From assembly GCA_013791855.1 (NCBI GenBank), contig VMTA01000019.1:62001-126000 (forward strand): DNA of 64,000 nt, in the 5' to 3' direction. The notes under the pieces are model-generated. The model worked only from the letters and a program-made list of their open reading frames with translations. It was not told the origin of the DNA and made no database searches. Positions 5,243-19,674 of this stretch are shown piece by piece. This stretch comes from Sideroxydans sp. GTDB lineage: Bacteria > Pseudomonadota > Gammaproteobacteria > Burkholderiales > Gallionellaceae. How positions within the stretch are numbered: the first letter of the stretch is position 1; every line of letters begins with the position of its first letter. A program made the translations under genes and the position numbers.

Positions 5243-7132
5243 TTAATGTCCTTCTGGCGGCGCCGTCTCTGCATCGCCTACCAGGTGGTAGAGCGGTGCT
5301 TTTTCCATCGTGTACTCGCCCGTCTTGGGATCGCGGCGGGACACAGTCAGCACGTGCCAGTTCTGGTCATCCAGCTTCATTGCGTCGCCGCGGTAGTAGT
5401 AGCCCGGCCAACGTGTTTCCTTACGGAACAGCGTGTGATGGAACACACTCTCGGAAGTCAGGAAACGGTGCTTCAGCTCCCATGCGCGCAGCAGTTCATG
5501 GATATCCGACGCGGCGACCTTTTCCAGATCTTCGCCCAAGATGGACATCTTCTTCAGACCGATGTTCAGGAGTTTGTCGTTGGTCATGTAGTTGACACCG
5601 AAACCGCCGCAATACTCGTCCATCAGCTTCTGCAAACGATCCAGACCCTGTCTCGGATTGATGAAGTTGGGATTGACGCTACCGGCAACCACTTCGTTGC
5701 TGTAGACACGATACGTTTCCAGCGGCTTGAAGATCTGCTCCTTGCGACGATTGATCTGCGCGTCGGAAACACGGATGCCTTCTGCTTTGCCATCGTCGAT
5801 ATATTTACAGGCAGCCTTGGCAGCCAGACGGCCTTCGGTGAACGATCCGGATGAGAAGGCGTGCGGTGTACCGCCGACCGCATCACCGGCACCGAACAGA
5901 CCTTCGATGGTCGTCATGCGGTTGTAGCCCCAGTAATACTCCGGAGGCGACACGTCTTGCGGACCCGAGCACCATGCGCCGCAACCGGTGGCGTGCGAAC
6001 CCATGACATAAGGTTCGGAGGTGGTCAGTTCCGGGTTCTCGTACTTGGGATCGACGTCCGTGGCGGCCCACAGCACGGCCTGACCGACGGTCATGCCGAG
6101 GAAGTTGTGCCAGCCGATCTCTTCAAGATGCGGGTCCTGGAAGGCTTCCATGGTGACCATGTGGATCGGGCCGCGACCGGCGTTCACCTCGTTGATGATC
6201 GCATGGTTACGGAGACAGGTCGGAATGGGACGGTGTGTACGGTGCGAGACTTCCGGATCCAGGTATTCCTTGCCCACCATCTGCTGTAGTGCCGGGAACC
6301 ACTTGGACTCGTACTCTTCGCCGTAGGCGTTCTGGGTATAGGTCTTGAGGTGCAGGAAGTAGGCACCGACCGGGCCGTAACCATCCTTGAAGCGGGCCAG
6401 CACGATACGGTTCTCCATCTGGGTCATCTTGGCACCGGCTTCGATCATCAGACCATAGGCAGAACCCGAAGACCACGGTGCGTACCAGACGCGGCCCGCA
6501 CCTTCGCCAACGGAACGCGGCTTGAAGATGTTGGAAGCGCCACCGGCGCCGCAGACAACCGTCTTGGACTTGAACACGTGGTAGTTACCCGTGCGCACAT
6601 TGAAACCCACGGCACCGGCAACACGGTTCTCCTTGGACTCGTCCATCAGCAGGTGGGTCAAACAGACACGGTTGAAAACCTTGTCCGCCGACTTCTTGGC
6701 CGCTTCGGCAACGATAGGCTTGTAGGATTCGCCGTGGATCATGATCTGCCAGCGTCCTTCACGCAGGAAGGAGCCTTTCTTCTCGTCGCGCATGATGGGC
6801 AGGCCCCACTCTTCGAAGTTGTGCACGGTGGAGTCGACGTGGCGTGCCATATCGAAAGCCAGATCCTCGCGCACCATGCCCATCAGGTCGATACGTGCAT
6901 AGCGCACATGGTCTTCCGGATTGTTCTCGCCGAAACGCGTGCCCATGTAGCAGTTGATCGCATACAGACCCTGTGCGACTGCACCGGAACGCATGATGTT
7001 CGCCTTTTCGGCGATGACGATCTTCTTGTTCTGACCCCAATATCTGGCTTCGAATGCCGCACCCGTACCGCCCAGGCCCGCGCCTGCAACCAGGATGTCG
7101 ATATTGTCTTCGATGATTGTCTGGTAGCTCAT
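5243..7132 (-). CDS. aprA: Adenylylsulfate (APS) reductase, alpha subunit
   Basis: AprA is the FAD subunit that interconverts APS with sulfite and AMP; in sulfur oxidisers it runs in the direction sulfite plus AMP to APS in the cytoplasm. The 629-residue product starts with an FAD-binding Rossmann motif (ILVAGAGLGGTGAAFEA, near residue 12) and carries typical AprA segments such as GAVAQGLYAINCYMGTRFG and SSGSFTEGRLAAKAA. Start at 7132 overlaps the aprB stop by one base (TAATG), giving translational coupling. The frame stays open further upstream, but that part is aprB read in another frame. It is the last gene of sat-aprM-aprB-aprA. Confidence 0.97.
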   Translation of the reverse strand: MSYQTIIEDNIDILVAGAGLGGTGAAFEARYWGQNKKIVIAEKANIMRSGAVAQGLYAINCYMGTRFGENNPEDHVRYARIDLMGMVREDLAFDMARHVDSTVHNFEEWGLPIMRDEKKGSFLREGRWQIMIHGESYKPIVAEAAKKSADKVFNRVCLTHLLMDESKENRVAGAVGFNVRTGNYHVFKSKTVVCGAGGASNIFKPRSVGEGAGRVWYAPWSSGSAYGLMIEAGAKMTQMENRIVLARFKDGYGPVGAYFLHLKTYTQNAYGEEYESKWFPALQQMVGKEYLDPEVSHRTHRPIPTCLRNHAIINEVNAGRGPIHMVTMEAFQDPHLEEIGWHNFLGMTVGQAVLWAATDVDPKYENPELTTSEPYVMGSHATGCGAWCSGPQDVSPPEYYWGYNRMTTIEGLFGAGDAVGGTPHAFSSGSFTEGRLAAKAACKYIDDGKAEGIRVSDAQINRRKEQIFKPLETYRVYSNEVVAGSVNPNFINPRQGLDRLQKLMDEYCGGFGVNYMTNDKLLNIGLKKMSILGEDLEKVAASDIHELLRAWELKHRFLTSESVFHHTLFRKETRWPGYYYRGDAMKLDDQNWHVLTVSRRDPKTGEYTMEKAPLYHLVGDAETAPPEGH

Positions 7133-7614
7133 TAGTATTGCACTCCCTCTTTGATTTCCAGACCATTGGATTCCAGTGTATGCAGGCCACCTTGATCCAT
7201 GCGGATATATTTCGGCTCGTTGAACAACAGTTGGCTGTCGCGCATCTCCTTGCTCGGAGCAGGTACGTCTGCGAGTTTGGGTGTGGCCGAGCCCCAAGGC
7301 TTGGTCGTGATCGGAGCCAGCAGCTCCATGTCTTTCTTGCCGTTGCGGAACTTGATGCGCCACGCGATGGTGCCTTTCTCCTCGTCGCGGATCACGCGTA
7401 CCGAGTGACCGAGCGGGGCAAAGTCCGCGTAACCGCGCACATCGATCGCCTGATGCGGACATGCTTTCACGCAGGAATAGCATTCCCAGCACATGTTGGG
7501 TTCGATGTTGTAGGCACGTCGCAATTTCTTGTCGATGTGCATGATGTCGGATGGGCAGATGTCGACGCATTCACCACAGCCGTCGCAACGCGTCATATAT
7601 ACAAAGGTTGGCAT
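7132..7614 (-). CDS. aprB: Adenylylsulfate (APS) reductase, beta subunit
   Basis: AprB carries electrons to and from the FAD of AprA through two [4Fe-4S] clusters. The 160-residue product has both ligand sets: C10, C13, C16, C20 (CDGCGECVDIC) and C42, C45, C48, C52 (CWECYSCVKAC). The C-terminal tail (MDQGGLHTLESNGLEIKEG), which wraps around AprA in known structures, is present. It follows aprM by 33 bases and overlaps aprA by one base. Confidence 0.97.
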   Translation of the reverse strand: MPTFVYMTRCDGCGECVDICPSDIMHIDKKLRRAYNIEPNMCWECYSCVKACPHQAIDVRGYADFAPLGHSVRVIRDEEKGTIAWRIKFRNGKKDMELLAPITTKPWGSATPKLADVPAPSKEMRDSQLLFNEPKYIRMDQGGLHTLESNGLEIKEGVQY

Positions 7615-7647: not shown

Positions 7648-8472
7648 TCAGTAGTGCTTTGCGCGTTCAGCCTTGATGCAAAGCCCCATGTTGGGCGGGT
7701 TCTTGCCCATGTACATCGGTACATCGGGGAACTTGGCATGCACTGCGGGATCGGTCAGGTCGTAGTCGGGCGGCAGGTTCTCGCGCCCGCCGTCGGCCAT
7801 GATGACGCGCTTCTGGAAAGCTGCCGCCGGCTTGAAGAACATGTGTGCGAACTTGGACCAGTACACACCGCCGAATAGCGCGGTGCTGGACAGGATGAAC
7901 AGAGCGAACAGCAGGTTCAGGCCGCCGCCGCTGTACGACCAGAGCAGGGCGAAGGTCGAGGTGGCCAGCAGCGAGACGATGAACAGGTCGGAACGCTCGA
8001 AGCGGAAGCGGGACAGGCCTTCCGCGGCCACGTCGACGCGGATCGCGAACCAGAACCAGTAGCCGCCGACGGCCAGCATCAGTGCGCCGATATGCCACAG
8101 CTGAGGCACCAGGGTGGAGGTGGTGTCCGGCGAGAAGATCATGATCGCGGTGGTCACCGCGAACATCATGAAGCCGTACATCATCAGCAGGTGGGAGATC
8201 CGGCGTTGCGGGTTGCTGAATTCGCCGGCGGTCATCACTTCGTTGGTCAGCACGCCTACGGCCATAGCGACCTTCTCGCCGCCGCCCACTTCGCGTTTCG
8301 CGCTCTTCTGTGCCTTCTTCGCGTTCTCGAAGAAGTACTTCGCACTCTTCTTGTGCAGCATGTCGAGTATCGTGCCGCCCATGACCAGCAGCACCATGAG
8401 CACGATGTAGCCTTGCATCATGGCGGGGGTGATGAGGTCTGGCAGTGTGGCAAAGGGGTTGCTCGTGAACAT
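7648..8472 (-). CDS. aprM: APS reductase membrane anchor AprM
   Basis: AprM is the presumed membrane partner that links the AprBA enzyme to the quinone pool in sulfur oxidisers that lack QmoABC. The 274-residue protein has about five hydrophobic segments (for example GYIVLMVLLVMGGTILDML, LLMMYGFMMFAVTTAIMIF, LWHIGALMLAVGGYWFWFAI, and two more near residues 175-225) with a histidine-bearing core and a soluble C-terminal tail. I chose the ATG at 8472, which has TGAGGAG close upstream; an ATG at 8526 would overlap sat. Location between sat and aprBA is the known aprMBA arrangement. Function rests on context and family, not on direct proof. Confidence 0.88.
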   Translation of the reverse strand: MFTSNPFATLPDLITPAMMQGYIVLMVLLVMGGTILDMLHKKSAKYFFENAKKAQKSAKREVGGGEKVAMAVGVLTNEVMTAGEFSNPQRRISHLLMMYGFMMFAVTTAIMIFSPDTTSTLVPQLWHIGALMLAVGGYWFWFAIRVDVAAEGLSRFRFERSDLFIVSLLATSTFALLWSYSGGGLNLLFALFILSSTALFGGVYWSKFAHMFFKPAAAFQKRVIMADGGRENLPPDYDLTDPAVHAKFPDVPMYMGKNPPNMGLCIKAERAKHY

Positions 8473-8518
8473 CAGGTTCTCCTCATTAAAATAATAGTCT
8501 CTGGAAATCGGTCGATCA

Positions 8519-9691
8519 TCAGCCATTCAATCCTGCATAGTACTTGCGCAATATCTCCAGCACTTCCGGGCGACTGAACTCGGCGGGAACTTCCTCTCCG
8601 TCGGAAAGCATCTTGCGCAACTGGGTGCCGGACACTTGCAGTCGGTCGGCATCGGAATGCGGGCAGGTGCGGGCCGAGGCCATGCCGCCGCACTTGTAGC
8701 ACCAGAAGGAGACGTCGATCTTGAGTGCTTGGGTCTCCAGTGCGTTCTTGGGGATCTTGTCGAAGATGTGGTGCGCGTCGAAGGGGCCGTAGTATTTGCC
8801 CACGCCTGCATGGTCGCGGCCGACGATCAGGTGCGAGCAGCCGTAGTTCTGGCGGAACAGCGCATGCAGCAGTGCTTCGCGCGGACCGGCATAGCGCATG
8901 TCCAGCGGGTAGCCGGACTGCACCACGGTCTTGCCGACGAAGTAGTTCTTGGTCAGCGCGATGATGGCATGGGTGCGCACTTCGGCCGGGATGTCGCCCG
9001 GTTTGAGATTGCCGAGCAGGGAATGGATCATCACGCCGTCGCACACTTCGATGGCGATCTTGGCCAGATACTCGTGCGAGCGGTGCATGGGGTTGCGCGT
9101 CTGGAATGCGGCGACCTTGCTCCAGCCCATCTCGGTGAACAGCGCGCGCGTCTCTTTCGGCGTCATGTACATCGCGCCGTATTTCTGCGGGAAACCGCCT
9201 TGCGACAACACCTTTACCGGACCGGCCAGGTTCACCTCGCCCTGTTCCATCACCATCTTCACGCCGGGGTGTTCGAGGTCGGTGGTGCCGAACACGGTGG
9301 CGCATTCGTGTGCCTTGTCGATGGTGTATTTCTCGGTCACCTGCATGGTGGCGAGGATACTGTCGTCGTCGGGGTCGACCAGTGCGATGGTGCTGCCGGT
9401 GGGGATGGCGTCCGCTGCGGACTTGTCGGTGGAGAGGGTGATGGGGATGGGCCAGAACAGACCGTTGGTGAGCGTCATGCCGTCGCATACGCCTTGCCAG
9501 TCGGCGTGGCTCATGAAACCGTCCAGCGGTGTGAAACCGCCTATGCCGAGCATGATGAGGTCGCCTTTTTCGCGAGAGCTCACTGTTACTTTGGGGTAAC
9601 TGCGTGCCCGATTCAACTCTGCGATCAGATCTTCGCCCACTAACAACAGTGGTTTCAGATCGCTCCCGCCATGCGGGTTTACCAATGCCAT
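8519..9691 (-). CDS. sat: Sulfate adenylyltransferase (ATP sulfurylase)
   Basis: In sulfur oxidisers Sat converts APS and pyrophosphate to ATP and sulfate, the substrate-level phosphorylation step after AprBA. The 390-residue product has the nucleotide-binding signatures QTRNPMH (197-203) and GRDHAG (291-296), and a zinc site C331-x2-C334-x8-C343-x-H345. Length is that of the bacterial homo-oligomeric type without an APS kinase domain. AGGGAGGC precedes the ATG. It is the first gene of the minus-strand operon; 46 bases separate it from aprM. Its promoter must lie in the 277-base region shared with soeA. Confidence 0.97.
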
Positions 9692-9968: not shown

Positions 9969-12884
9969 ATGTCATCGACACCATTGCACGACCCCTTGGC
10001 GCCGCCGGTCGCTGGCGCCACCACCGAGATCAAGAAGACTACCTGTTATATGTGCGCTTGCCGATGCGGCATCCGCGTGCATATCCGCAACGGCGAGGTG
10101 CGTTACATCGACGGTAATCCCGACCACCCGCTGAATGCAGGCGTGATCTGTGCCAAGGGCTCTTCCGGCATCATGAAGCAGTATTCGCCGGCACGTCTGA
10201 CCAAGCCGCTGCGCCGCAAACCGGGCACCGAGCGCGGGGCGGGCGAGTTCGAGGAGATCAGCTGGGAAGAGACGTTCACATTGCTCGCCGATCGTCTCGG
10301 CGAACTGCGCGCCACCGATCCTAAGAAGTTCGCCTTGTTCACCGGGCGCGACCAGATGCAGGCGCTGACCGGCATGTTCGCGCGCCAGTTCGGCACGCCC
10401 AACTACGCGGCGCACGGCGGTTTCTGCTCGGTCAACATGGCGGCCGGCATGATCTACACCATCGGCGGTTCGTTCTGGGAGTTCGGCGGTCCGGACCTGG
10501 AGCGTTCCAAACTGTTCATCATGATCGGCACAGCCGAGGACCATCACTCCAACCCGCTCAAGGTCGCGCTGTCCAAGTTCAAGCGCGAGGGCGGTCGTTT
10601 CATCTCCATCAATCCGGTGCGCACCGGATATTCGGCCATCGCAGACGAGTGGGTGCCTATCCGTCCTGGTACCGACGGTGCGCTGTTCCTCGCCATCATC
10701 CATGTGCTAATCTAGCTGGGTCTATACGACCGCGAGTTCCTGGTGCGTTACACCAACTCCGGCCAACTGGTGAACCTGGATGCGGCGCATGACGAGTTCG
10801 GCATGTTCGTGCGTACCGAGGTGCCGGAAGAAGAGGGCTGCTACGACCCGCAGAACAAACTGTGGTGGGATCGCAATACCAACAAGCCGGTGGTGACACA
10901 TACCGAGGGGGCCGACCCATTCCTGCGCGGCGAGTTCAAGCTGGCTGATGGCACACCGGTCAAGCCCGCGTTCCAGTTGCTCAAAGAGCGCGTCGCCGAA
11001 TACACACCGGAGTGGGCAGAGGGCGTGACCGGCATCCCCGCCGACACCATCAAGCGTCTGGCGCACGAGATGGGCATCACCGCACGCGACCAGAAGATCG
11101 AACTGCCGATCGCATGGACCGATTCCTGGGGCAAGGAGCACGACACCGTCACCGGCAATCCGGTGGCCTTCCACGCCATGCGCGGATTGGCTGCGCACTC
11201 CAACGGTTTCCATACCATTCGTGCGTTGTCCATCCTGATGACGCTACTGGGTACCATCGATCGTCCGGGCGGCTTCCGTCACAAGACACCGTTCCCGCGT
11301 CCGATCCCGCCCTGCGCGCGTCCGCCCAACGATCCGCGCGCGGTGCAGCCGAACACGCCGCTGGACGGCATGCCGCTGGGCTGGCCGGCCGACCCGGACG
11401 ATCTGTTCGTGGACAAGGAAGGCGAAGCGGTGCGTATCGACAAGGGTTTCTCCTGGGAGTATCCGTTGTCCGCGCACGGCCTGATGCACAACGTGATCAC
11501 CAACGCCTGGCGCGGTGATCCGTACAAGATCGACACGCTGCTGCTGTTCATGGCCAACATGGCGTGGAACTCCAGCATGAACACCAGCGAAGTGCGCAAG
11601 ATGCTCACCGACAAGGATGAGAACGGCGAGTACAAGATCCCGAACATCGTGGTGTGCGACGCGTTCCATTCCGAGACTACCGCATTCGCCGACTTGATCC
11701 TGCCGGATACGACTTATCTGGAACGACACGACGTGATGTCCATGCTGGACCGTCCGATCTCCGAGTTCGACGGCCCGGTGGATTCGGTGCGCATCCCGGT
11801 GATGCCGCGTACTGGCGAGTGCTTGCCGTTCCAGGAAGTGTTGATTGAACTCGGCACGCGCCTGAAGCTGCCGGCGTTCGTCACCGCTGACGGCGCGCGC
11901 AAGTACCGCGACTATCCGGACTTCATCGTCAACTGGGAGACCGCGCCGGGTTCCGGCATCGGCTTCCTGTCCGGCTGGCGCGGCAAGGGCGGCGAGAAGA
12001 GTATGAAGGGCGAGCCGAATCCGAACCAGTGGGAGATGTATGCCAAGAACGACTGCGTGCACCACGAGGTGTTGCCGCGTTCCTACCAGTTCATGCGCAA
12101 CTGGAACAAGGGTTATCTGGAATGGTCGCAGCGCAACGGTATCACGCGCTATTCCGAGCCCATCCTGATCCACCTATATTCCGAGGTGATGCAGAAATTC
12201 CGTCTGGCCGCGCAGGGCAGGAGCATCACCCGCCAACCGCCCAAGCATCTGGCCAAGCGCGTCGAGACTTATTTCGACCCGTTGCCGTTCTACTACGAGC
12301 CGCTGGAGACACAGGCCAGCGACAAGCAGAAGTACCCGCTGTCCGCCGTGACGCAACGCCCGATGGCGATGTATCACTCGTGGGATTCGCAGAACGCCTG
12401 GCTGCGCCAAATTCACGCGCACAACTATCTGTATGTGAACGCGCTGACCGCGAAGAACGCGGGCATCAATGACGGAGACTGGATCTGGTGTGAATCGCAA
12501 TGGGGCAAGGTGCGCTGCATGGCGCGCTACAGCGAGTCGGTCGAGCCGGGCACGGTGTGGACATGGAACGCCATCGGCAAGGCCGCCGGTGCGTGGAACC
12601 TGACACCGGACGCGAACGAGTCGCAACAGGGCTTCCTGCTCAATCACCTGATCTCGGAAGAATTGCCGAAGCAGGCCGACGGTTCGCGCTTTTCCAACTC
12701 CGGCCCGATCACCGGGCAGGCCGCGTGGTACGACGTGCGCGTGCGCATCTACAAGGCGGAAGAGGGTGAGCCCAAGCAGACCTCGCCGCAGTTCCCGCCC
12801 ATGAAAAAATATCCCGGCATGAAGGATGCGCCGACTTGGTTGGCCTACTTGGCTGGAGCAAGAAAGAAAGGCGGTGCGAAATGA
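9969..12884 (+). pseudogene. soeA: Sulfite dehydrogenase (quinone) molybdopterin subunit SoeA, interrupted by an in-frame TAG
   Basis: SoeA is the Mo-bisPGD catalytic subunit of the SoeABC complex, which oxidises sulfite directly to sulfate on the cytoplasmic side of the membrane. The frame spans 971 codon positions. The N-terminal [4Fe-4S] site is intact (C26, C29, C33, C61) and C153 in GGFCSVN is the probable Mo ligand, as in PsrA-type enzymes. Codon 249 (10713-10715) is TAG, between IIHVLI and LGLYDREF; reading resumes without frame change and continues with full family similarity to the end. A lysine or glutamine codon is expected there. The stop overlaps the soeB ATG (ATGA). Either a sequencing error, a real nonsense mutation or suppression. 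The start could also be TTG 9963. Confidence 0.85.
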
Positions 12885-13612
12885 CACAACTCGCATTGGT
12901 GATCGACCTGAACGTGTGCGTGGGCTGCAGCGCCTGCGTGACCAGTTGCAAGGAATGGAACACTTCCGGCTCGGCCGGCCCGCTGGTGGATGAACGTCCC
13001 TACGGCGAGAACCCGACCGGTACGTTCTTCAATCGTGTGCAGACCTACGAGATGGGCACGTTTCCGAACAGCGAGACGATGCACTTCCCGAAATCCTGCC
13101 TGCATTGCGAAGATCCCCCGTGCGTGCCGGTGTGCCCGACCGGCGCTTCCTACAAGCGCAAGGAAGACGGCATCGTGTTGGTGGATTACGACAAGTGCAT
13201 CGGCTGCAAATACTGCTCATGGGCGTGCCCGTACGGCGCGCGAGAGATCGACGAGAAGCAGAAGGTGATGAAGAAGTGCACCCTGTGCGTGGACCGTATC
13301 TACGACATGACGATGCCGGAAGAAGATCGCAAGCCGTCCTGCGTGAAGGCTTGCCCGACCAGTGCACGCCTGTTCGGCGACATCCATGATCCGGAATCGG
13401 CAGTGTCGGTGGCGATCCGCGAGGATGGCGGCTATGCGCTGATGCCGGAATGGGGTACACATCCTTCCAATCACTATCTGCCGCGTCGCAAGACCAAGAT
13501 GAAGATCCACGCCGACGAGCTGGAGCGCGCCGACAATCCGCTCAAACTCGACCAGCAATTGCCCAAGCCGGACAAGGATCAGTCGACGATGGACGACGTG
13601 TCGGCCTGGTAA
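12881..13612 (+). CDS. soeB: Sulfite dehydrogenase iron-sulfur subunit SoeB
   Basis: SoeB transfers electrons from the Mo subunit to the membrane subunit. The 243-residue product is a DmsB-type ferredoxin with four cysteine clusters: CVGCSACVTSC near residue 13, CLHCEDPPCVPVC near 74, CIGCKYCSWAC near 106, and CTLC with a distant CVKAC near 133-160. The ATG at 12881 overlaps the soeA stop (ATGA); an earlier in-frame start would lie inside soeA. Twenty bases separate it from soeC. That soeB and soeC are intact argues the complex was functional at least recently. Confidence 0.94.
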   Translation: MTQLALVIDLNVCVGCSACVTSCKEWNTSGSAGPLVDERPYGENPTGTFFNRVQTYEMGTFPNSETMHFPKSCLHCEDPPCVPVCPTGASYKRKEDGIVLVDYDKCIGCKYCSWACPYGAREIDEKQKVMKKCTLCVDRIYDMTMPEEDRKPSCVKACPTSARLFGDIHDPESAVSVAIREDGGYALMPEWGTHPSNHYLPRRKTKMKIHADELERADNPLKLDQQLPKPDKDQSTMDDVSAW

Positions 13613-13632: not shown

Positions 13633-14604
13633 ATGAAACCAGCATTCTCAGTGATCTTTTTGACGACCTTGATCGGCGCGGCGCAGGGCCTGTTCCTCGC
13701 CCTGTTCACGCACCAGTCGTACGCGCTGTTCGGCCTGTTGCCGATGCAGTCAGATGACTTCTACGGCTACGGCACGCTCATCGTGATGGTGTTGCTGGCG
13801 GCAGGTCTGGTTGCATCGTTCTTCCACCTCGGTCGCCCCGAACGCGCCTGGCGTGCAGCCACGCAGTGGCGCACCTCATGGCTGTCGCGCGAAGTGATCG
13901 TGCTGCCCGCGTTCATGGGCGTGGCATTTCTGTTCGGAGTGTCGCATCTATTCGGCATCCGTCCCGAGATCGTTACTTTGCCAGGCGGCCAGGTGGTCGA
14001 TCTGTCACTGTTGCTGGGGGTGGTTGGGACGCTGCTGGCGTTCGCGCTGTTCGTGTGTACAGCGATGATCTACGCTTGTTTGCGCTTCCTCAAGGAATGG
14101 AATTCTCCGCTGACAGTCATCAACTACATCCTGATGGGTGGTTCGTCCGGTTTTATTCTGGCCGCCTTCTATGCGGTTTCTGCCGCGCCGGATCAGGCCG
14201 ATTTCTTTGCCGGTTGGGCAATCATAATCACCGTGCTGGCACTGATTGGACGTGTGGCATCCTTGATACGCAATGCGCGCCTGAAGCCGACCTCGACCAT
14301 GCAGACCGCCATCGGTGTGAAGCATCCCAAGATCACCCAGCGTTCCATGGGCGCGATGGGCGGTTCGTTCAACACGCGCGAGTTCTTCCACGGCAAGAGC
14401 GATAGCTTCCTGCGTGCGATCAAGCCGGCTTTCCTGTTGCTGGCCTTTGTGTTGCCGCTGGTGTTGCTGGCGATCAGCCTGTCCACGCCCGCGTTATTGG
14501 GGCTGGCGTTTATACTGCAGTATGTCGGGCTGCTGGCCGAGCGCTGGTTCTTCTTCGCACAGGCCAACCATCCGCAAAATCTCTATTACCAGACCGTAGG
14601 CTGA
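13633..14604 (+). CDS. soeC: Sulfite dehydrogenase membrane anchor SoeC (DmsC/NrfD-like)
   Basis: SoeC anchors the complex and passes electrons to quinone. The 323-residue protein is strongly hydrophobic with about eight membrane segments, beginning with FLTTLIGAAQGLFLALFTHQ, and contains the DmsC-type AWRAATQWRTSWLSREV loop near residue 80. A soluble stretch between about 220 and 260 (HPKITQRSMGAMGGSFNTREFFHGK) is a usual feature of SoeC-like proteins. It follows soeB by 20 bases and precedes a SulP transporter by 10 bases, so the transporter is probably cotranscribed. Confidence 0.92.
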   Translation: MKPAFSVIFLTTLIGAAQGLFLALFTHQSYALFGLLPMQSDDFYGYGTLIVMVLLAAGLVASFFHLGRPERAWRAATQWRTSWLSREVIVLPAFMGVAFLFGVSHLFGIRPEIVTLPGGQVVDLSLLLGVVGTLLAFALFVCTAMIYACLRFLKEWNSPLTVINYILMGGSSGFILAAFYAVSAAPDQADFFAGWAIIITVLALIGRVASLIRNARLKPTSTMQTAIGVKHPKITQRSMGAMGGSFNTREFFHGKSDSFLRAIKPAFLLLAFVLPLVLLAISLSTPALLGLAFILQYVGLLAERWFFFAQANHPQNLYYQTVG

Positions 14605-14614
14605 TGCAATCCTG

Positions 14615-16411
14615 ATGGCAACTCAAACTCGTACCCGTATCTGTAAAGACTGGCTGTGCCGGTCGCTTCCGTTCATGCAATGGAAGCATCTGGTAGACAA
14701 GCAATCCTCCCGTGCCGATCTGATCGCGGGCCTGACCGGTGCGATGATCGTTTTGCCGCAAGGCGTCGCGTTCGCCACCATCGCCGGTATGCCGCCGGAG
14801 TACGGTCTTTATGCCGCCATGGTGCCGGCCATCATCGCTGCCCTGTTCGGTTCGAGTTGGCATCTGGTGTCGGGGCCGACCACGGCCATCTCCATCGCGG
14901 TGTTCGCGGCTATGAGCCCGCTGGCCGATCCGGGTTCGCCCGAGTTCATCAGCATGGTGCTGACGCTGACCTTTCTGGTGGGTTTGTTCCAGTTGATACT
15001 CGGGCTGGCGCGTATGGGGGTGCTGGTCAACTTCATTTCGCATACGGTGGTGATCGGCTTCACGGCCGGGGCGGCGGTGCTGATCGCGGCCAGCCAGGTG
15101 AAACATTTCTTCGGTATCGCCATCGAGCGCGGCGCGCATTTCCATGTGGTGATCGAGCAACTGGTCCTGCAGCTCGGCGACATCAATCTGTACGTCACGC
15201 TGGTCGGTGCGGTGACGCTCGCTGCCGGGATATTGGCGAAGCGGCTCATCCCCAAGATGCCTTACATGATCGTGGCCATGGTGGTCGGCAGTGTGGTGGC
15301 CTGGCTGGTCAATCTGGAAGTCGGCGTGGCGACCACCCACATCACGACGGTGGGGGCACTGCCTTCGCACCTGCCGCCGCTGTCGTTGCCTGACTTCTCC
15401 TACGACACGATACGCAAGGTGCTGTTCCCGGCGCTGGTGGTGACCATGCTGGCGCTGACTGAGGCGGTCTCCATCTCGCGCGCCATCGCGGTGAAGTCGG
15501 AGCAGCGCATCGACGGCAATCAGGAATTCATCGGCCAAGGCCTGTCCAATCTGGTCGGCAGCTTCTTTTCCAGCTACGCCTCCTGTGGTTCGTTCAACCG
15601 TAGCGGCGTGAACTACGCAGCCGGTGCGCGCACGCCGCTGGCGACGGTTTATGCCTCGATCTTCCTGTTGCTGATCCTGTTGCTGGTCGCGCCGCTGGCC
15701 GCCTATCTGCCGACGGCGGCGATGGCGGGCATCCTGTTCTTGGTGGCATGGGGACTGATCGATTTCCACCACATCTCCAGCATCATGAAGACCAGCCGGG
15801 GAGAGACCGTCATCCTGTGGGTGACGCTGGTGGGTACCTTGATCGATCTGGAAAAAGGTATCTTCTTCGGTATCCTGCTGTCGCTGGCGATCTATCTGTA
15901 CCGCGTCTCCAAACCCGGCATGCGTCCTGTCGTGCCGTCGAAGGAAGAGGGCGCCTACCATTTCGTCGGCGCCGAGGACCATCCGCAATGTCCGCAGATG
16001 TCCATCATGCGTATCAACGGCGCATTGTTTTTCGGTGCCGTCGATAACGTGCGTGACCGTCTGCACCAGATAGACGAGGAGGATCCGCAAAAGAAATCGC
16101 TGCTGCTGACCGTGCGCGGTCTGACCTTTGTGGACGTGGCCGGAGCCGAGATGCTGGCCCAAGAGGCGCGCCGCCGCAAGAAGTTGGGCGGCAGGATTTA
16201 CTTCTATTCATGCAAAGAAGCGACGAAGGATTTTCTGAGGAAATCCGGGGCGATGAAAGACATCGGCGAAGAGAACTTCTTCCCGGTGATGTCGAATTGG
16301 GTCGGGAAAATCTATCCAGATCTGGACCCGGAGATCTGCCGCAATTGCACAGCGCGCATATTCAGCGAATGCAATGTCAGATTGCCGAACGGTGCACCGA
16401 GGACGAACTAG
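14615..16411 (+). CDS. SulP family inorganic anion transporter with STAS domain
   Basis: A 598-residue SulP (SLC26-type) permease: transmembrane domain from about residue 35 to 430, with PPEYGLYAAMVPAIIAALFGSS and GPTTAISIAVF typical of the family, then a C-terminal STAS domain (MRINGALFFGAVDNVRDRL and LLLTVRGLTFVDVAGAEML). A cysteine-containing tail, ICRNCTARIFSEC, follows; I recall similar tails in other proteobacterial SulP proteins. Substrate could be sulfate, sulfite or bicarbonate. Its position right after soeC suggests movement of the sulfate product or related anions; direction is not decidable. The ATG has only a weak ribosome-binding site. Confidence 0.92.
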   Translation: MATQTRTRICKDWLCRSLPFMQWKHLVDKQSSRADLIAGLTGAMIVLPQGVAFATIAGMPPEYGLYAAMVPAIIAALFGSSWHLVSGPTTAISIAVFAAMSPLADPGSPEFISMVLTLTFLVGLFQLILGLARMGVLVNFISHTVVIGFTAGAAVLIAASQVKHFFGIAIERGAHFHVVIEQLVLQLGDINLYVTLVGAVTLAAGILAKRLIPKMPYMIVAMVVGSVVAWLVNLEVGVATTHITTVGALPSHLPPLSLPDFSYDTIRKVLFPALVVTMLALTEAVSISRAIAVKSEQRIDGNQEFIGQGLSNLVGSFFSSYASCGSFNRSGVNYAAGARTPLATVYASIFLLLILLLVAPLAAYLPTAAMAGILFLVAWGLIDFHHISSIMKTSRGETVILWVTLVGTLIDLEKGIFFGILLSLAIYLYRVSKPGMRPVVPSKEEGAYHFVGAEDHPQCPQMSIMRINGALFFGAVDNVRDRLHQIDEEDPQKKSLLLTVRGLTFVDVAGAEMLAQEARRRKKLGGRIYFYSCKEATKDFLRKSGAMKDIGEENFFPVMSNWVGKIYPDLDPEICRNCTARIFSECNVRLPNGAPRTN

Positions 16412-19365: not shown

Positions 19366-19674
19366 ATGATTTCGTTTCGAATGCTATTGGTCTTCATCGG
19401 ACTGGGCTTGTGCTCTGTCGCACAGGCGGCAGGTGTCGATAAACACGCGCGCAACATGGCGGCATCCTGCTCCGCCTGCCATGGTACGGACGGTTACAGC
19501 GAGGGTGGCATGCCGGTGATCGCGGGTATGGATAAAAAGCTGTTCGTCATCACGATGAAGGACTTCAAGTCCGGCGCGCGTCCGGCCACCGTCATGCACC
19601 AGCATGCCAAGGGTTACTCCGACGAGCAGATCGAGATGCTCGCGAAGTTCTTCGCTGCGCAGAAGCGCAAGTGA
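19366..19674 (+). CDS. fccA: Monoheme cytochrome c, FccA-like subunit
   Basis: A 102-residue secreted cytochrome c: signal peptide to about residue 21 (ending AQA), one CSACH heme-binding site near residue 34, and downstream methionines as possible axial ligands. Size and position directly before the flavoprotein subunit fit the small heme subunit of flavocytochrome c sulfide dehydrogenase. GGGGAGG precedes the ATG at 19366; an earlier ATG at 19297 would give a non-signal extension. A generic class I cytochrome serving as acceptor for Sox is the alternative. Confidence 0.82.
   Translation: MISFRMLLVFIGLGLCSVAQAAGVDKHARNMAASCSACHGTDGYSEGGMPVIAGMDKKLFVITMKDFKSGARPATVMHQHAKGYSDEQIEMLAKFFAAQKRK

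Follow-up and report, generated by a model that had tools for sequence, protein, structure and literature searches.

A stop codon in the middle of an otherwise open gene can mark a real loss of function, a codon that is decoded in an unusual way, or a wrong base in the assembly, and soeA in this draft genome (G000) of a Sideroxydans, an oxidiser of iron and sulfur, raises the question of which of these applies. The assembly comprises 2.55 Mb in 47 contigs (99.74% complete, 0.4% contamination). Genomes with the label Sideroxydans or Gallionellaceae are among the nearest relatives that carry a name, and the taxonomy lists them under the order Nitrosomonadales. The window, meaning the whole stretch of 64,000 nucleotides that was analysed, covers positions 62001-126000 of contig C23 (225,362 bases). 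The soe genes and the sites discussed below are located in it as follows.

9969..12884, + strand: soeA reading frame with one in-frame TAG (open reading frame, homology, Pfam)
10704..10706, + strand: codon 246, GTG (Val), at a position filled by Glu in 128 of the 130 other SoeA rows that have a residue
10713..10715, + strand: in-frame TAG, codon 249; the seven closest homologues encode Glu here
10743..12884, + strand: open frame past the stop with a possible GTG restart, 713 aa, without the Fe4S4 domain (open reading frame list)
12702..12704, + strand: codon 912, Gly, where all 130 other rows that have a residue carry Asp
12881..13612, + strand: soeB, ferredoxin-type subunit, intact, its start overlapping the soeA stop (open reading frame, Pfam)
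13633..14604, + strand: soeC, DmsC-type membrane anchor, intact (open reading frame, Pfam)

The TAG noted in the preliminary description is present in the assembled sequence. Counted from the ATG at 9969, the soeA frame has 971 codons followed by a TGA at 12882-12884, and the TAG at codon 249 is its sole internal stop. The terminal TGA overlaps the soeB ATG at 12881 (ATGA), and soeB and soeC are both open, as had been stated. The claim that the reading past the TAG stays homologous to the end also held, with the read-through frame aligning over 971 of 971 residues with the intact SoeA of relatives, at 98% identity to the nearest. A second SoeA match was not found in G000 at E <= 0.001, and the 261-bp stretch around the TAG occurs there once; a paralogue or second soeA copy as donor of the changed patch was thereby ruled out. 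Among the literature matches listed, no title or opening of an abstract reports this soeA mutation.

The read-through SoeA gave Pfam matches over cut-off to Molybdop_Fe4S4 (PF04879, residues 21-72), Molybdopterin (PF00384, 76-602) and Molydop_binding (PF01568, 793-899), while PF13247 was found in SoeB and PF04976 in SoeC. The operon order soeA-soeB-soeC matches that of the SoeABC of Allochromatium vinosum and Sideroxydans ES-1, a membrane-bound, cytoplasm-facing sulfite dehydrogenase, and the window shares with it a Mo/Fe4S4 catalytic subunit, a ferredoxin-type SoeB and a DmsC-type SoeC. It also shares the lack of a twin-arginine motif, which was absent from the first 30 SoeA residues when read by eye, as expected for an enzyme on the cytoplasmic side. 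None of the 25 NCBIfam models listed for SoeA passes its own cut-off, and the name SoeABC, a putative sulfite:quinone oxidoreductase, rests on context and on the placement of the ES-1 Soe in the Soe clade, as stated in an excerpt of PMC4643136. Near-identical SoeA homologues occur in genomes labelled Sideroxydans or Gallionellaceae. Unlike the SoeABC of A. vinosum and ES-1, the window's soeA is broken by the TAG at codon 249.

The seven closest SoeA genes (G033, G015, G032, G008, G017, G021, and G372) are free of stops, encode proteins that are 95-98% identical, and all carry GAG or GAA at codon 249, so GAG to TAG is the simplest and likely change there. A source codon of CAG or AAG, as proposed in the preliminary description, was therefore not borne out; Lys appears in somewhat more distant homologues, among which Ala, Arg, and other codons are also seen. 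The same description's statement that the downstream two thirds show no further damage needs a small correction: two residues of the frame, Val 246 and Gly 912, depart from columns at least 98% conserved among 131 other rows. The exceptions to Glu at position 246 are one Gln and one Val (E246V in the window), and the changed base of this codon sits eight bases upstream of the changed base of the stop. The Val row (L213), at 66% identity, belongs to a homologue free of stops, and Val also occupies this position in 2vpw, the thiosulfate/polysulfide reductase of Thermus, so E246V is not clearly damaging and may be harmless. For the change at 912 (D912G), no parallel Gly was seen among the rows.

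At columns at least 98% conserved in the 132 SoeA rows, the window's soeA departs twice, while the 26 further rows with identity of 88% or higher comprise 19 with no departure, 7 with one, and none with two; at that rate, the chance of two is about 0.03 (Poisson, a post hoc figure). Across all 132 rows, 45 show at least two departures, and these are mostly distant rows. The window's soeB, soeC, and sat have none at near-invariant columns. Against six close relatives, we counted 45 private changes, of which 35 are silent and 10 are not. A local error hot spot was considered and rejected: a cluster of four private changes within 20 bp, as seen around the stop, arose in 606 of 5000 shuffles, and some clusters elsewhere are denser, including in aprM. 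The densest cluster in the compared stretch is in that gene, with ten private substitutions in 50 bp at window positions 8246-8295, and aprM is among the fastest-evolving genes of the apr-sat cluster.

The real gene would be intact if the TAG arose as an error of assembly or consensus, or if a draft consensus, probably built from short reads, took up the variant of a minority strain, and we consider this a serious possibility, although short of probable. A single wrong base suffices to give the same picture, the frame is otherwise strongly constrained (see dN/dS below), and the two radical changes at codons 246 and 249 are only 8 bases apart. The character of the draft fits as well. No 16S rRNA gene was found in G000 by a search that detected 16S in 9 of 14 known genomes, and tRNA-Ile(GAT) and tRNA-Ala(TGC) are absent among its 42 tRNAs; the rRNA operons are therefore probably missing from these 47 contigs, as in short-read drafts that lose them. 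Against an error stands the rest of the contig, where no other large gene was interrupted on the half that was compared (register-filtered genes over 112,043 of 225,362 bases, versus the five relatives G008, G032, G017, G033, and G015). Internal stops were flagged in 12 gene comparisons. Four of these are soeA itself (versus G008, G032, G017, and G033; the soeA of G015 is cut by a contig end), one (469 aa) extends sat upstream and has its stop before the sat start, and the remaining seven are short frames of 103-269 aa, which leaves soeA as the only large gene with an internal stop in the compared 112 kb. The near-invariant departures also argue against an error: in addition to its stop, soeA carries two, one of them 2 kb off, and its neighbours soeB, soeC, and sat have none.

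Pairwise dN/dS against six relatives was 0.03-0.07 past the stop, 0.017-0.035 in the part of soeA before it, and 0.01-0.05 in soeB. The values past the stop lie near those of soeB and only a little higher than those before the stop. Purifying selection thus appears still visible beyond the stop with little decay, so any loss would be recent, bearing in mind that pairwise dN/dS has low power over so short a time. The locus resembles the nonsense pseudogenes of recently dispensable genes in having one in-frame stop, a frame that is otherwise full-length, an intact alternative pathway, and a congener in which soeA has been cut down to a relic. It differs from clear nonsense pseudogenes in that decay is so early that the sequence alone also fits an error.

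Low dN/dS past the stop, together with intact soeB and soeC, would also fit a gene that is still translated in full, with the TAG decoded by amber suppression or programmed readthrough, as the preliminary description had allowed. We consider this very improbable. The locus is like UAG recoding and suppressor-tRNA systems in having an in-frame TAG within a conserved gene, but unlike them, the gene for RF1 is present and intact (over cut-off, no internal stop), no CTA anticodon was found among the 42 tRNAs (ARAGORN, on a draft that seems to lack the rRNA-operon tRNAs), and TAG is an ordinary terminator, ending 12 of 103 compared genes on the contig, including the one at 14615-16411 just behind soeC. 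The Glu codon at the site in the seven closest relatives likewise speaks against a conserved recoding site. The soeA stop is ordinary in kind, and neither a change in the genetic code nor a new mechanism is indicated.

Still less credible is a restart at the GTG at 10743, which would make SoeA a split enzyme of two pieces. The 713-aa open frame does begin 27 bases past the stop, but the stretch at this GTG is ordinary coding sequence in the intact relatives, so nothing was gained, and the break falls within the Molybdopterin domain (76-602). None of the results supports use of this GTG as a restart.

The reading of a recent loss of function, with AprMBA-Sat as a back-up route for sulfite, draws on the genes directly upstream of soeA.

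5243..7132, - strand: aprA, intact (TIGR02061 over cut-off; comparison with G023 puts the start at the ATG at 7132)
7132..7614, - strand: aprB, intact (TIGR02060 over cut-off)
7648..8526, - strand: aprM-like membrane protein, frame open (none of the curated models reaches its cut-off; named from its place in the cluster)
8519..9691, - strand: sat, intact (two sulfate adenylyltransferase models over cut-offs)

The aprA frame is open upstream across much of aprB (window 5243-7570, 775 aa in the mechanical open reading frame list), so the aprA start may be miscalled by automatic annotation; homology places it at the ATG at 7132. DsrA is present and intact in G000, and no PF00174 match, as would mark a SorA/SoxC-type sulfite dehydrogenase, was found in the genome.

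A parallel comes from a congener, G023, a genome in one contig that is 99% complete. Although dsrA, aprA, aprB, aprM, and sat are all there, nothing at the level of SoeA was found in the genome (best match 1.8e-21, 30% identity), nor any soeB or soeC match in the 35 kb around the apr-sat cluster. What is present, ~ 5.5 kb beyond sat, is a soeA relic of ~ 107 bp with a stop inside.

L219 ~19459-19565, equal to G023:C1 ~1,769,459-1,769,565: decayed soeA relic (similarity to soeA)

The relic is 74-78% identical to soeA in its ten best matches (best E 3e-16), and none of 20 mononucleotide shuffles of the region gave a protein-level match. We infer that soeABC formerly stood beside the G023 apr-sat cluster and has since been removed. 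In G019 (99% complete), soeA, aprA, and dsrA are all lacking.

Of the three options that the preliminary description had offered, loss of function is the best supported, with an error keeping the weight given above, since G000 has intact AprA, AprB, and Sat and no SorA/SoxC-type enzyme by the PF00174 search, and since soeA is gone from beside the apr-sat cluster of a congener. We favour, with modest confidence, a real and recent nonsense mutation in a soeA that is now dispensable, as an early stage of SoeABC loss. With the Glu codon changed to TAG, the catalytic SoeA would end after 248 of 971 residues. By the domain positions, the product to residue 248 includes the whole Fe4S4 domain (21-72) but only the first portion of Molybdopterin (76-602), and a fragment without most of the molybdopterin part would presumably be inactive. 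SoeB and SoeC would also be poorly made, because the start of soeB overlaps the end of soeA and ribosomes would halt 2.2 kb short of it, with loss of translational coupling. Oxidation of the sulfite from reverse Dsr would then fall to AprMBA and Sat, the genes for which are intact, although the flux itself is a prediction. The window's soeA would in this way represent an early step of a loss already complete in a close relative.

Stops in soeA of other genomes were surveyed in 80 SoeA-bearing genomes of the order (80 of an initial 98). Internal stops were found in three, namely the window's genome, G034, and G290, and all three are TAG. In G034 (L023 / L217), the TAG is at soeA codon 228, a position that is Trp in all 129 of the other rows having a residue. 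In G290 (L187), it is at codon 898 of its own frame (query position 901), within the last 8% of SoeA, and two sisters have Glu there. Both are independent of the window's TAG. In both genomes soeB is intact, soeC is open over the residues that could be compared (322 aligned in G034, 255 available in G290), aprA is stop-free and 48% identical to the window's, and dsrA is present. Departures at near-invariant sites were considered as a general mark of stop-bearing soeA, an idea rejected for G290 and weakened for G034: the four departures in G290 are common to its stop-free sister and one of those in G034 is common to L066, so these appear to be lineage traits shared with stop-free relatives. As controls in the same 80 genomes, internal stops were found in none of 70 rpoB matches (67 genomes), 78 alaS matches (77 genomes), or 76 aprA matches (68 genomes), which argues against an assembly error in the window's soeA. 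The comparison of 3 of 80 with 0 of 224 control matches gives a Fisher value of 0.018, for a contrast picked after the finding had been seen; a stop in rpoB or alaS, the two housekeeping genes of the three, would be lethal, making aprA the fairer control.

Sulfite can be oxidised to sulfate by two routes that often coexist, an overlap described as unexplained in an excerpt of PMC6382920, which also states that SoeABC activity is backed by genetic evidence only and that aprBA is non-essential in A. vinosum. A genome survey (PMC6397845) describes soeABC as completely conserved in dsr-positive sulfur oxidisers. G023 is an exception to that statement, as is the window if its TAG is real, and the broken soeA and the G023 relic would be natural loss-of-function cases in dsr-positive genomes. 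Ferriphaselus is reported to show the reverse state, its genomes having dsr and soe and lacking both apr and sat (excerpts of PMC4643136 and PMC11044966), and sulfur oxidation is termed auxiliary in Gallionellaceae (PMC10734462, excerpt). These cases suggest that some dsr-positive sulfur oxidisers with APS reductase can do without soeABC. We suggest more tentatively that soeABC has been lost repeatedly, through soeA amber mutation or deletion, among dsr-positive lineages whose aprA is still intact, which would make direct sulfite oxidation optional and the APS route sufficient. If true, such repeated loss would counter the published picture of soeABC as always kept with dsr. The window and G023 suggest that SoeABC can be given up where AprMBA-Sat is retained, and they mark out lineages suited to testing this idea.

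Beyond the window's genome and G034, 13 further genomes were flagged for stops in the survey, and all were checked by tblastn, with only that of G290 proving internal. The stop is at the normal end (968) in G397, G371, and G342, and at codon 2 in G409. No stop was seen within the aligned stretch in G349, G362, G415 (aligned over 18-930), G099, G171, G087, G131, and G038 (375-966). Four more genomes, G050, G043, G059, and G045, carry distant molybdoenzyme homologues (28-32% identity) with one internal TGA each, which we presume may be selenocysteine formate dehydrogenases.
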